DNA from: Candidatus Woesearchaeota archaeon
GTDB taxonomy: Archaea; Nanobdellota; Nanobdellia; Woesearchaeales; GW2011-AR4
Length of the DNA: 64,000 bases
Reading direction: 5' to 3'
Assembly: GCA_016180235.1 (NCBI GenBank)
Contig: JACPBQ010000004.1
Span: 239,674-303,673, forward strand
The translations under genes and the position numbers were made by a program. The notes under the pieces were generated by a model, which made no database searches, was not told where the DNA came from, and saw nothing but the letters and a program-made list of their open reading frames with translations. Position 1 is the stretch's first letter; every line of letters starts with the position of its first letter. Below, piece after piece: positions 13,760-62,547 of the stretch.

Positions 13760-14985
13760 GATTGTCCTGAGTACTGTATTGTGCATCCAAGCTGCCTTGC
13801 ATCGTGCTCTGTTGATACCAGCATGAAATTAGGCACGTCTATTGTTATTCCAGATGTTACGAATTCTGCGCCACTTTTTAATAATCTGTCTATTATGCCA
13901 AATTCGTTTGCAACGACGGCTGTGCCGGCAACACCACCAATAGTTCCGAGCCCTAAAAATTTTAATATGGTTCCACCTGCTGCTGCGGCCGGGGCACCAA
14001 CAAAATAAAGCACGACAACGCCTGCTGCTGTTCCTATTGCATAGCCGCCAATGGCAGCATAGCATCCTGTATTGGTGACTATCCCTCCTTCCTTGGTGCA
14101 GAACTGGCTGCTTGGGCTTAAGAATGATATTGCATATCTTTCTCCCGGAACAAAATTCATGTCACTGGCTTCCTGGCCGCCAGGAGACATGAAGAATATA
14201 TCCCCGCCTCTTGAGCCGTATTCCCTTATATATCTCGTAAAGGAATATACAGAATCATCCCTTACGTAGCATGTCTGCCCTCTTCCGGGGCATGACCATT
14301 CATTGTATATTCTCGGGTATCCGCTTGGGCTTCCAGAATCTGAGCATATTCCTCCCTTATTCCCGCACTCGTCCCTTAGGTCCCTAACGCAGCACTTGTA
14401 ATTTGCTCCTGGCGATATTTTCTTTGAGCTTAATTCTTTTTCATCATTACTGCATGCTGTCCTCCAAAAGCCGCCGTAAGGCGCGCATTGGTCGCTTTTA
14501 TCAGCGGCAAAATAAGGCTCTGACATCGAATCTGAGAGAGACTTGAATGTGACGCTGCTTGCGTCCTTGCTTACCCTGAAAGTGTAGCACGTAAAGCATC
14601 CCTCGGAGAACGGATATTTTTCAAAGGTGTTTTTTTGCGAGCCGTCAAGCCACATATGCCAGCAACTCTTTATCATGTCCCTGATCTCAGCTTCAGCGCC
14701 CTTGCTATTCTGAGGATATTTTCCGTTCGGGACCTGCATTTTCCCCTCGGTCTTGTCTATTGTGCTGCATATCTGCGGGCCTGACACGATATTAGAGGTC
14801 TTTTCCTTGAGGCCGAATTTTATTTCATTGGATATCCTGCATAAGTCAACCTGCAGCTTCTCATCAACCTTGGAAGCCTGGTTTTTCACAGCTACGAGAA
14901 TTATGCTGCCTGAGAGCAGAAGCAGTATAAGCCCGACTATTATGCCGAAGCCCGAGGCCGTAAAGCCTTTTTTGTTTATTGCCAT
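13756..14985 (-). CDS. Cys-rich membrane protein of the surface cluster with two hydrophobic regions
   Basis: 409 residues. The N-terminal start NKKGFTASGFGIIVGLILLL carries a KKGF class-III-like site before the first membrane helix. The extracellular part has about 14 Cys (CFTCYTF, KCCVRDL, CGNKGGICSD). A second hydrophobic Gly/Ala-rich hairpin lies at about 305-365 (YAIGTAAGVVVLYFVGAP), which may insert into a membrane. I do not recognise a family. It overlaps the 47-residue gene by 4 bases. Confidence 0.7.
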   Translation of the reverse strand: MAINKKGFTASGFGIIVGLILLLLSGSIILVAVKNQASKVDEKLQVDLCRISNEIKFGLKEKTSNIVSGPQICSTIDKTEGKMQVPNGKYPQNSKGAEAEIRDMIKSCWHMWLDGSQKNTFEKYPFSEGCFTCYTFRVSKDASSVTFKSLSDSMSEPYFAADKSDQCAPYGGFWRTACSNDEKELSSKKISPGANYKCCVRDLRDECGNKGGICSDSGSPSGYPRIYNEWSCPGRGQTCYVRDDSVYSFTRYIREYGSRGGDIFFMSPGGQEASDMNFVPGERYAISFLSPSSQFCTKEGGIVTNTGCYAAIGGYAIGTAAGVVVLYFVGAPAAAAGGTILKFLGLGTIGGVAGTAVVANEFGIIDRLLKSGAEFVTSGITIDVPNFMLVSTEHDARQLGCTIQYSGQS

Positions 14986-45089: not shown

Positions 45090-45980
45090 TCATAAATTTA
45101 TTTTCATAAAATCTTCTGCTGTAATGACGTTGTCAAAATAAGTCCTCGCTTCATCTTCAAGGTCTGATGTGTTTTTGTATCTGGCGCTAAAATGGGTTAA
45201 TATTAGCTGCTTGGCATTGCTCCTGTTCGCAATTTCCGCAGCCTGCTTGGCTGTCATGTGCCCATATTCCATTCCCTTCTCTTCAAGATCAGATGCGTAA
45301 GTAGCTTCCGATATCAGCAAGTCAGCATCTTTTGCAAGCTTATAGGCCCCTTTGCACGGTACTGTATCTGTTATTATGGCTAAGCTTTTCCCTTCCCCCA
45401 AATTTGTAGCTTTCTTAACATCCACTTTTTTCCCTTTCCAGGCTATGCTTTTCCCTTCCTGCAACGCGCCCAATAATGGGCCATCCGGAACCCCAAGCTT
45501 TTTTACATAAGCAATATTTATTTTTCTCTTGCCCTTTTCCACAAGCCTGTAACCTAAAGTCTCTATATTGTGCTCTAATTGCCCTGTTTCAAGAACAAAT
45601 TCATCATTCTCAAAAAATTTTCCGGATTTTATTTCATTGACTATAATTTCAAACTTTTTATCAAAGCCGAAAACTTCAAACATCTTTTCAACAAGTTTTT
45701 TTGTTCCTTTAGGACCATAAAGATTCAATATCCTGTTGTATCCGGAAGAGCTCATGCTTTGTATCAGTCCAGGAAGGCCCAATACATGGTCTCCATGCCA
45801 GTGGCTTATCAAAATTTTAGTGATTTTTGTCAGCTTTATGCCGGCTATCTTCAGCTGCCTCTGCGTCCCTTCCCCACAATCAACAAGAAGATTCTCAGAG
45901 CCAGAGCTAACCAAGATGCTGCTATGGTTCCTTTCCTTTGTCGGCACCATGGAAGAGGTGCCCAAAAATATTATCTGCAT
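45090..45980 (-). CDS. rnz: Ribonuclease Z (tRNA 3' endonuclease)
   Basis: 296 residues from the ATG at 45980; the frame runs six codons further but a TATA box (GATTTATAATATG) lies 30 bases before this ATG. Beta-lactamase-fold nuclease that trims tRNA 3' ends. Motifs: FLGTSSMVPTKERNHSS, SHWHGDHVLGLPG (metal site), YGPKGTKKLV, and the late motifs ISEATYA and GHMTAKQAAEIA, LTHFSARY. Needed for the tRNA-Gly at 62393, which encodes no CCA. Confidence 0.95.
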   Translation of the reverse strand: MQIIFLGTSSMVPTKERNHSSILVSSGSENLLVDCGEGTQRQLKIAGIKLTKITKILISHWHGDHVLGLPGLIQSMSSSGYNRILNLYGPKGTKKLVEKMFEVFGFDKKFEIIVNEIKSGKFFENDEFVLETGQLEHNIETLGYRLVEKGKRKINIAYVKKLGVPDGPLLGALQEGKSIAWKGKKVDVKKATNLGEGKSLAIITDTVPCKGAYKLAKDADLLISEATYASDLEEKGMEYGHMTAKQAAEIANRSNAKQLILTHFSARYKNTSDLEDEARTYFDNVITAEDFMKINL

Positions 45981-46090
45981 ACTTATGAAGCAATACACAG
46001 CATATTATAAATCTTTCATTTAAAGATATAGTTAAAATAAGACAAAAAGCCATAATATTATTGAAATCATATTTTCAAAAAACCCTAATT

Positions 46091-46225: not shown

Positions 46226-46804
46226 ATGGCAAAAGCCAAGAAAAAGACAGAAGAGAAAATAGAGGAAAAGGCACCAGGCAAAATGATAATAGCCAATTTT
46301 GAAGCAGATAAAGTGCTGACTGAAATTTCAAACGAGGCCAGGGAGCTGTATGACCAGAGCAGGTACGGCACCCCCCTAGACAATGGAAAAATCCAGCTTT
46401 CCCTTATAGAGGCGTTTTACCTTATGGACAAGGGAAAAATTGATATTTACAAGAGCAAGAACAAGAAATTTGCGCATGACGAGTTTGTCAGGAAAGCGAG
46501 AAAATTAGAGCCGAATTTCTGGGTCAAGTACTGTGTTTTCAAGGATATAAGGAACAGGGGATATATAATAAAGACCGCTTTGAAGTTCGGAGCGGATTTC
46601 AGGGTTTATGACCGCGGCGTAAAACCAGGAGAGGACCATGCCCGCTGGATCATTTTTCCAGTGAATGAAGGAAGCACTTTAACATGGCATGAATTTGCAG
46701 CGAAGAACAGGGTAGCGCATTCCACCAAAAAAAGGCTTCTTATAGGGGTTGTTGATGAGGAAGGGGATGTCAGCTATTGGGAAGTAAGGTGGATGAGACC
46801 TTAA
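46226..46804 (+). CDS. endA: tRNA-splicing endonuclease EndA
   Basis: 192 residues, one-domain size as in homotetrameric archaeal enzymes. It cuts bulge-helix-bulge motifs at intron ends. Catalytic triad region: YDRGVKPGEDHARW (Tyr, His) and RVAHSTKKRLLIGVV (Lys), then YWEVRWMRP at the end. The N-terminal 20 residues are a Lys/Glu tail. It begins an endA-wHTH protein-fen1-trm5 series with short gaps. A substrate with two introns lies at 62393-62547. Confidence 0.95.
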   Translation: MAKAKKKTEEKIEEKAPGKMIIANFEADKVLTEISNEARELYDQSRYGTPLDNGKIQLSLIEAFYLMDKGKIDIYKSKNKKFAHDEFVRKARKLEPNFWVKYCVFKDIRNRGYIIKTALKFGADFRVYDRGVKPGEDHARWIIFPVNEGSTLTWHEFAAKNRVAHSTKKRLLIGVVDEEGDVSYWEVRWMRP

Positions 46805-46849: not shown

Positions 46850-47785
46850 ATGTCAACGAATGAGCAGATACTTGATCTTGTGAAGAAAAAAGGCCCTATT
46901 TTGCCTGTCCATGTCTCAAAGCAGATAAATGACAACTTACTGATGACTTCTGCAAGGCTTTCTGAGCTTTTGTCTAATAAAAAAATAAAGATATCGAGCA
47001 TCAAGGTCGGGGGAAGCCCATTGTACTATGTTGAAGGCCAGGAAATCAGGCTGCAGGACTTTTCCGACAATCTTGGGAGCAAGGAGAAAGAAGCCTATAA
47101 CTTGCTTAAGGAGAAAAAGATACTGAGGGATGCAGCCTTAGAGCCGGCAATCAGGGTTGCTTTAAGGATCATAAAGGACTTTTCAATACCCTTGAACGTG
47201 AATTACGACAACAGGACAGAAATATTCTGGAAATGGTACCTTACTCAAAATAATGAGGCGCAGGAAAAAATAAGGGAAATATTATCAAAAAAAATAGAGC
47301 CGGATTTGTCCCTGAAAAATCCACAGGCAGAACTGGAAACTCCAAAACAAACAGAGACACAAAAACCTCTAATAAAAGAGGAAATTCCAAAAACATTGGC
47401 TAAAGAGCCGGAAAAAGCAATAATAAAGGAAAAGGCAGAGCAGAAAAAAGAAGCCAGAAAAAAGCCGAAACATGATAATAATTTCAACAATAAAATAAGC
47501 AGTTTTTTCAATAAGAATAAGATTGAAATCCTGGAAACCAAGGAGATAAAAACCAACATAGAAACGGATTTTATAGTTGAACTAGCGACTTCTATAGGCA
47601 ATGCAAAGTACTTCTGCAAGACAAAGAACAAGGCCAAGATAAACGAGTCTGATTTAAGCACTGCTTTGCTTAGCGCGCAGTCAAAAGGACTGCCGCTGAT
47701 TTTCCTGACAAACGGGGAGATATCAAAGAAAGCCAAGGAAATGATGAATAACGAGTTTAAGAACATAATCTACAGGGAGATTTAG
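46850..47785 (+). CDS. Winged-helix protein with C-terminal nuclease-like domain, upstream of fen1
   Basis: 311 residues. N-terminal winged helix (about 1-65: EQILDLVKKKGPILPVHVSK, LSELLSNKKIKISSIKVGG), a middle helical domain, a Lys/Glu-rich linker (about 155-215) and a C-terminal alpha/beta part (about 222-311: FIVELATSIGNAKYFCKTKNK, LPLIFLTNGEIS). The last part resembles restriction-endonuclease-like folds, but the catalytic set is not clear. TATA box CATATTTAAAAC about 30 bases before the ATG. The stop touches the fen1 ATG. Confidence 0.7.
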   Translation: MSTNEQILDLVKKKGPILPVHVSKQINDNLLMTSARLSELLSNKKIKISSIKVGGSPLYYVEGQEIRLQDFSDNLGSKEKEAYNLLKEKKILRDAALEPAIRVALRIIKDFSIPLNVNYDNRTEIFWKWYLTQNNEAQEKIREILSKKIEPDLSLKNPQAELETPKQTETQKPLIKEEIPKTLAKEPEKAIIKEKAEQKKEARKKPKHDNNFNNKISSFFNKNKIEILETKEIKTNIETDFIVELATSIGNAKYFCKTKNKAKINESDLSTALLSAQSKGLPLIFLTNGEISKKAKEMMNNEFKNIIYREI

Positions 47786-62392: not shown

Positions 62393-62547
62393 TACGGCAG
62401 CCGGGACTTTCAAGCCATAACTTTCTTCTGAAATTTAACGGCCATCGAACCCGGATCGCAAGCTCGCTCCGACTTTCCGTCAGTGCATCCTTCCAGGACG
62501 CCTCGAAGTCTTGGGAAGCTCGAATCATACCACTAGACCACTGCCGT
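62393..62547 (-). tRNA. tRNA-Gly (anticodon CCC) with two introns
   Basis: The mature tRNA is 71 bases. Acceptor ACGGCAG (62547-62541) pairs with CTGCCGT, discriminator A (62393). The D arm has conserved A14, G15, G18, G19 and A21. Anticodon stem CGAGC pairs with GCTTG, loop TTCCCAA, anticodon CCC at 62515-62513. T stem CCGGG pairs with CCCGG. Intron 1 (62465-62511, 47 bases) lies at 37/38 with a perfect bulge-helix-bulge: CGAGC, TTCC with GGAG, bulges CAA and CGA, outer GACTT with AAGTC. Intron 2 (62407-62443, 37 bases) lies at 59/60 in the T loop; TTCG pairs with TGAA between the cut sites. CCA is not encoded. A TATA box (GGTTTATTAAAT) lies about 30 bases upstream. Confidence 0.85.

Follow-up and report, generated by a model that had tools for sequence, protein, structure and literature searches.

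The 64,000-nucleotide stretch of DNA analysed here (the window) comes from a Candidatus Woesearchaeota archaeon and carries an interrupted tRNA-Gly(CCC) gene and a gene for the tRNA splicing endonuclease EndA. The source assembly comprises 1.04 Mb in 9 contigs and is 80.75% complete. Neither ARAGORN nor Rfam at gathering scores reported any tRNA in the whole window (0 each). The original prediction was that taking out both introns leaves a complete tRNA, and removal of both in silico yielded a 71-nt tRNA that ARAGORN called tRNA-Gly(ccc). Run without its intron search, ARAGORN found no tRNA when none or only one of the two introns had been removed. The spliced sequence has the CCC anticodon, A73, C2-G71, G3-C70 and the T loop TTCGATT, and the exon stems are all intact; we take A73, C2-G71 and G3-C70 to be tRNA-Gly identity elements. 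The TATA-box-like element upstream of the gene, TTTATTAAA, has identical letters in a genome of the same genus (G001). An uninterrupted copy elsewhere, which the original prediction treated as a possible sign of a pseudogene, was not found among close matches in the 80.75%-complete assembly (E <= 1). The locus is a real and most likely functional tRNA-Gly(CCC) gene with two predicted bulge-helix-bulge (BHB) introns.

Features of the tRNA-Gly(CCC) and EndA loci, in window coordinates
Feature	Position	Strand	Description
tRNA-Gly(CCC) precursor gene	62393..62547	minus	three exons and two introns
Exon 1	62512..62547	minus	tRNA positions 1-37, 36 nt
Intron 1	62465..62511	minus	47 nt, at the canonical 37/38 site; reads as a strict BHB
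Exon 2	62444..62464	minus	tRNA positions 38-59, 21 nt
Intron 2	62407..62443	minus	37 nt, T loop, 59/60
Exon 3	62393..62406	minus	tRNA positions 60-73, 14 nt
T-arm BHB	62401..62454	minus	matched by model R1, 38.7 bits
TTTATTAAA	62573..62581	minus	TATA-box-like, putative function; centre 30 bases upstream of tRNA-Gly(CCC)
EndA gene	46226..46804	plus	tRNA splicing endonuclease, 192 aa, both EndA domains (N- and C-terminal); no other EndA gene found in the assembly

Structure of the two introns

Intron 1 reads as the textbook BHB that had been predicted for it: a TTCC/GGAG helix with one G-U pair lies between two 3-nt bulges, CA↓A and CG↓A (arrows, putative cuts), and the inner helix is GACTT/AAGTC. 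The claim that intron 2 splits the T loop at 59/60 with a 4-base TTCG/TGAA helix was borne out by reading and by its conservation in other genomes. The T stem CCGGG/CCCGG serves as the outer helix of this second motif, TGAA near the 3' end of the intron pairs with T-loop bases 54-57 (TTCG, one G-U), and the inner helix GCCGT/ATGGC has one extra T. By reading, the exon preceding the cut and the 3' end of the intron thus form a central helix of 4 bp in both cases. The 3' bulge of intron 2 is 3 nt (AG↓T). On its 5' side, A-T↓G faces a single unpaired T (3x1); were this T to pair, a 2-nt bulge would be left. The word textbook therefore fully applies only to intron 1. Free folding of the whole precursor gave the central helix a probability of 0.51-0.63 for intron 2 and 0.01-0.08 for intron 1, values by which energy folding alone neither proves nor refutes either BHB.

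Pairing in the T arm was assessed across related tRNA genes. In 16 T arms, from rows picked independently of that pairing, the central helix TTCR/YGAA had 4/4 pairs in 10, 3/4 in 5 and 2/4 in 1. The row with two pairs (L089) was scored among the 16 and excluded from A2, the alignment behind both the covariance model R1 and the covariation test; L059 was too short for the 37-column frame and went unscored, and L087 fell under the score limit. Over the 15 rows, BHB pairs were present in 84.6% of cells compared with 77.1% in shuffles, and 0 of 500 shuffles reached as high. Pairing dropped to 30-62% when the partners were slid by 1-3 columns, a comparison that favours the actual structure because it was derived from those very sequences. 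Covariation with the intron was seen at T-loop base 57, whose combination with its partner was G-C in 6 rows, A-U in 5, G-U in 2 and other in 2. Two controls of this test are weak: 143 of 500 shuffles reached the observed value for further pair types, and sliding the partners by +1 still gave a covariation score of 0.231, close to the actual 0.251. Only 58.3% of cells were paired in the inner helix. Judged from sequence, the T-loop insert is an endonuclease (BHB) intron. Catalytic introns were rejected, since the inserts are too short and no Rfam family was matched in the window.

T-loop introns in related genomes and across the order

The spliced tRNA-Gly(CCC) was searched in 59 genomes, the source genome included, and an intron-tolerant alignment was made of 50 loci. 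Among these are 31 distinct tRNA-Gly(CCC) genes (the window's gene included), with the T-loop intron present in 11, absent in 18 and ambiguous in 2. In G001 (96% complete), the sole locus matched was the same gene with the T-loop intron: the match is unbroken to position 59, a 37-nt intron follows at 59/60, and there is no anticodon intron. The T-loop introns of the two genomes are identical at 34 of 37 bases and their exons differ at 3 of 71. Upstream flanks are alike at 166 of 197 positions and downstream flanks at 105 of 183, compared with about 60% for shuffled sequence. G005 has only the anticodon intron, 47 nt long and at the same site as intron 1, and tRNA-Gly(CCC) genes with neither intron occur in G018, G016 and G021. 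Six tRNA-Gly(TCC or GCC) genes also carry a T-loop intron (L085, L059, L073, L091, L087, L089). The conserved T-loop intron has TTATGGCTTGAAAG in several genera; no guide-RNA motif was seen by eye in this conserved intron.

The extent of such introns was measured with R1, a covariance model of the T-arm BHB with 15 training rows, the window's own gene among them. The T arm of that gene scored 38.7 bits (E 6.1e-7 in 304 kb), and R1 had matches in 52 of the 59 genomes, source included (E <= 0.1). From the matches listed, 69 were picked by genome and E-value and checked; 68 were distinct and 8 were training genes. A 7-bp acceptor stem with at most one G-U was present in 66 of the 69, 64 outscored every one of 30 shuffles made from their respective upstream sequence, and 52 scored above the best of all 2070 upstream shuffles. 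The central helix had 4/4 pairs in 63 of the 68 distinct matches and 3/4 in 5, a count that is not independent evidence because the model itself found them. The 5' side of the T-loop BHB mostly departed from the strict form, being 3x1 in 35 of these matches, 3x0 in 10 and otherwise in 23, in a set biased to R1. By reading, the tRNAs with T-loop introns include those for Ala, Arg, Asp, Gln, Glu, Gly, Ile, Leu, Lys, Pro, Trp and Val; the isotype labels of low-scoring rows cannot be relied on, since additional introns, frequently in the D loop, disturb where the anticodon is placed.

With stricter filters (E <= 1e-4), R1 matched 46 of 119 genomes across the phylum. These divide into 43 of 85 genomes in the order of the source archaeon, its own among them, and 3 of 34 from the rest of its class, a split counted from two tables with the 119 genomes taken as the same set in both. 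R1 missed an 83-nt intron in tRNA-Leu(CAA) although that row is in the model, so the R1 counts are lower bounds. The original prediction had placed T-loop introns mainly in Thermoproteales; the R1 matches depart from this view, and such introns are common across the order.

In the source genome, T-loop introns were read in tRNA-Gly(CCC), Gly(TCC) (L223), Leu(CAA) (C9:221104-221324) and Lys(TTT) (L042), with an ambiguous case at C5:8803 (L222). This amounts to 4 or 5 of 16 recognisable tRNA loci, which do not make up a census. An ordinary tRNA search of the genome returned 11 tRNA genes. A relaxed finder gave a best background of 17.4 in 8 resampled first-order Markov sequences and at least 20.5 for five true genes; three known or supposed real loci lay near or under background, and the finder still misses known tRNAs such as C9:73437-73527. 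In G044 (one contig, 100% complete), the four checked T-loop introns are in tRNA-Pro, Ala, Arg and Ile (L225-L228).

Further irregular tRNA loci were seen in passing. D-loop inserts were read in the source archaeon's tRNA-Pro (L010, G000:C4:46245-46343) and, in several relatives, in tRNA-Asp genes that have a T-loop intron as well (L219, L204, L211, L212, L209 and L253, which form the D-loop set with L010). L042, on the minus strand at about 14635-14728 of G000:C4 and beyond, reads as tRNA-Lys(TTT) with introns at 37/38 and in the T loop; its T loop is TCCGA and not TTCGA, and a C at position 55 would be highly unusual for a tRNA. At L222 (G000:C5:8803-8858), a T-loop intron adjoins tRNA-like sequence whose 5' acceptor strand is seemingly split, GGG ... 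ACCG with a hairpin between. This locus is possibly one tRNA with four or more introns, or a broken gene.

Introns of different tRNA genes were also alike within one genome. Outside the common 3' end, the introns of Ile(TAT) and Val(TAC) of G017 scored 47 against each other, and those of the source genome's Gly(TCC) and C5 locus scored 33, compared with a shuffle maximum of 18 (n=1540) in each case. The source genome's Lys(TTT) intron has the same ATATCCCAGAGGG start as the Gly(TCC) and C5-locus introns. Such likeness in different tRNAs of one genome indicates that T-loop introns have spread. A separate 37/38 intron family, recognised near gatcaaagattcgctgg, is common to the source genome's Gly(TCC) (L223), Ala(CGC) of G001 (L218) and Arg(TCT) of G044 (L228).

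Splicing endonuclease and ligase

EndA matches both Pfam domains of the enzyme, and its residues Y128, H138 and K169, which we take from M. jannaschii to be catalytic, are invariant in 23 sequences. The fold predicted from those 23 sequences (mean pLDDT 81.3, pTM 0.78) best matched the enzyme of Methanocaldococcus jannaschii (1a79_A; Z 23.6, rmsd 1.7, 171/171 residues, 37% identity), followed by those of S. tokodaii (2cv8_B, Z 21.8) and Nanoarchaeum (3iey_A, Z 18.5). By sequence, the best PDB match was Nanoarchaeum equitans 3iey_A (E 9.1e-39; 141 residues aligned, 45% identity). Residues 177-181 (DEEGD), presumably the L10 loop, are kept as DADGD in M. jannaschii, and this stretch is two residues shorter in 3iey_A. 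A 10-residue insertion of S. tokodaii 2cv8_A, presumably part of the Crenarchaea-specific loop, is absent from EndA. At 192 aa compared with 384-395 residues in the ARMAN-2 chains, EndA is no three-unit fusion; it has the make-up of an alpha4 gene, one gene of about 180 aa with N- and C-terminal EndA domains. The best 80 named EndA relatives, of 458 found, were nearly all from Woesearchaeota, Nanoarchaeota or archaeal MAGs, the closest among these 80 being JACPDF010000012.1 of Candidatus Woesearchaeota archaeon NC_groundwater_302_Ag_B-0.1um_38_13 (90% over residues 21-192); these relatives point to a Woesearchaeota-like DPANN archaeon. Next to EndA and divergently oriented to it, a tRNase Z-like gene (window 45090-45998, minus) matches Lactamase_B_2 and, weakly, Lactamase_B_4 and tRNase Z; antisense traces of this neighbour were seen by eye upstream of EndA in G004 (L030) and G031 (L028). 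Just downstream, an ORF of 311 aa (window 46850-47785, plus) has no Pfam match at E <= 0.001.

The single visible endonuclease gene of homotetramer size that the original prediction described is present, and the PF01974 profile found one gene in the source genome even at E <= 1. Among the 59 relatives (E <= 1e-3), 53 have at least one EndA match and only G031 has two, on short contigs, which we ascribe to a mixture of strains or bins. The 6 genomes of the 59 that lack a match include G017 (67% complete) and G019 (86%), both with T-loop introns. Across 119 genomes of the phylum (E <= 1), 118 matched, the exception being the complete genome G065. A second match at this threshold occurred in 17 of the 119. 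One of these cases, found in a class member whose 600-kb genome forms one contig, consists of two adjacent short EndA-like matches (G145:C1:350522-351216, the second at E 1.3e-4). The pair resembles Nanoarchaeum-type subunits, the second being a putative structural subunit, and it serves as a positive control for our search, the sole convincing one among the 119. Another, in G060, is a 54-aa piece at a contig start, and the other 15 (E 0.0136-0.87) were taken as chance because the same search also matches the bacterium Thermotoga at E <= 1. A single match was seen in the source genome (G000), G001 (96% complete), G039 (99%), G043 and G044. The second subunit offered by the original prediction was therefore not visible by the PF01974 profile (E <= 1) in the 80.75%-complete source genome, in G001 and G039, or in G044 with its four T-loop introns, though a very diverged one could escape the profile. 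One gene for the ligase RtcB lies in the source genome (C1:63531-64847), and 12 of 13 genomes searched had a match.

Some lineages among the Thermoproteales, Thaumarchaeota and Caldiarchaeum have a heteromeric EndA, and the M. jannaschii enzyme (alpha4) is strict for BHB. EndA of the window resembles the latter in its full-length fold, both domains, catalytic residues and lack of an extra loop; unlike the M. jannaschii enzyme, it would need to act on T-loop BHBs with a relaxed 5' side. The N. equitans enzyme, (alpha-beta)2, is the closest solved sequence for the catalytic subunit, and Nanoarchaeum has a second EndA subunit where none was found here by PF01974.

Our literature search, with most subscription papers outside its scope, found no paper on Woesearchaeota tRNA introns; databases of automatically annotated tRNAs may contain such genes already. 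Disrupted tRNA genes have been reviewed (PMC4390854), and alpha4 is described as the EndA archetype (PMC4090602). In a survey of 217 archaeal genomes, 673 noncanonical introns were reported, the genes newly found with them being mostly from Crenarchaeota and Thaumarchaeota (PMC8450103). Caldiarchaeum has T-arm tRNA introns; like the genes described here, those of Thermoproteales, Thaumarchaeota and Caldiarchaeum include BHB introns outside 37/38, the T arm included (PMC3293823), with several per tRNA. Reviews link those introns to heteromeric EndA, whereas here there is one EndA gene without the crenarchaeal insertion and in another phylum. Noncanonical tRNA introns are also reported in Asgard archaea; in Atabeyarchaeia and Freyarchaeia, which likewise belong to another phylum than the source archaeon, introns are often noncanonical and more than half of tRNA genes have several (PMC11291895). 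For Woesearchaeota and others, group I introns are described in rRNA, not tRNA (PMC6125680). Noncanonical introns are said to co-evolve with the type of endonuclease, a change of enzyme explaining their spread (PMC4033280), and broad EndA specificity is attributed to the loops CSL, ASL and ESL (PMC12397907). Single-gene enzymes do occur alongside noncanonical introns, as in Korarchaeum, whose EndA is alpha2 with the loop (PMC4033280), and in ARMAN-2 with epsilon2 (PMC6379350), but each has a specific loop and another make-up, that of ARMAN-2 being a three-unit fusion. For the nanoarchaeon Nst1, it is reported that a structural EndA subunit could not be identified (PMC3655853).

Proposed intron removal and its meaning for the order

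With considerable confidence, we interpret the locus as a working tRNA-Gly(CCC) gene from which one EndA, likely a homotetramer, cuts both BHB introns before RtcB joins the exons, and its T-loop intron as one of many that spread in the order. On folding, the transcript would form a BHB between each intron and its exon borders, one at the anticodon and one at the T arm. In the T arm, T-loop bases 54-57 would pair with the TGAA of the intron 3' end, and the T stem would act as outer helix. EndA, encoded by a single gene and most likely a homotetramer like that of M. jannaschii, would cut each motif at its two bulges, after which RtcB would ligate the exons. The T-loop intron of this gene probably predates the divergence of several genera and would be part of a large T-loop set that spread among tRNA genes across the order.

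The original prediction left a choice between an EndA of relaxed specificity and an additional subunit. Less relaxation is called for than this choice implied: the T-loop motif is canonical at the 3' side, with its 3-nt bulge, has a 4-bp centre and is relaxed only at the 5' side, which softens the dilemma. An alpha4 EndA recognises the BHB rather than the rest of the tRNA, so where an intron lies in the molecule does not by itself speak against such an enzyme. The two options were thus not exhaustive, as an alpha4 EndA may cut the T-loop BHB with modest tolerance at the 5' site. An improbable alternative is a heteromer, in which a strongly diverged structural subunit joins EndA and confers broad specificity as in Crenarchaeota and Nanoarchaeum. 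The best PDB sequence match, 3iey_A, belongs to an (alpha-beta)2 enzyme of broad specificity (PMC6379350), and reviews tie such specificity to (alpha-beta)2 and epsilon2. However, the profile that shows two matches in G145 shows no second one in G000, G001, G039, G043 or G044, the DEEGD stretch has the M. jannaschii form where 3iey_A is shorter, and the best fold match is M. jannaschii.

It is also conceivable, though very unlikely, that the gene is a pseudogene or relic whose T-loop insert is never removed, with GGG read by tRNA-Gly(TCC). The source genome has that Gly(TCC) gene (L223), but it too carries a T-loop intron. The pseudogene reading was rejected because the exon stems are all intact, intron and exons are conserved in G001 where the downstream flank is not, the sole matched locus of that 96%-complete genome is the same intron-bearing gene, and T-loop introns occur in many isotypes. 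Hardly any weight falls on the proposal that the inserts are chance, assembly artefacts or another RNA element in T arms. The assemblies are metagenomic and the inserts short and often AT-rich, yet independent assemblies share the site, the inserts pair with the T loop, most checked R1 matches (52/69) exceed every upstream shuffle, and the window holds no Rfam family at gathering scores.

T-loop introns may explain why an ordinary search found so few tRNA genes (11) in an 81%-complete genome. They would also give an independent example of introns spreading from one tRNA gene to another, comparable with Thermoproteales, where intron transposition among tRNA genes is reported (PMC4033280). Abundant T-loop introns together with a single alpha4-type gene, as far as seen, strain the textbook match of enzyme and intron. 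According to PMC6379350, only (alpha-beta)2 and epsilon2 EndA remove relaxed BHB introns efficiently, and the order here offers a clean test of that rule. We see an even chance that, throughout this order of DPANN archaea, 5'-relaxed T-loop introns are removed by an alpha4 EndA that comes from one gene and has neither a Crenarchaea-type nor an ARMAN-type loop. Broad specificity would then have evolved without the known loops or a second subunit, and short mobile introns would land and pair on the invariant TTCRA, bringing their own YGAA.
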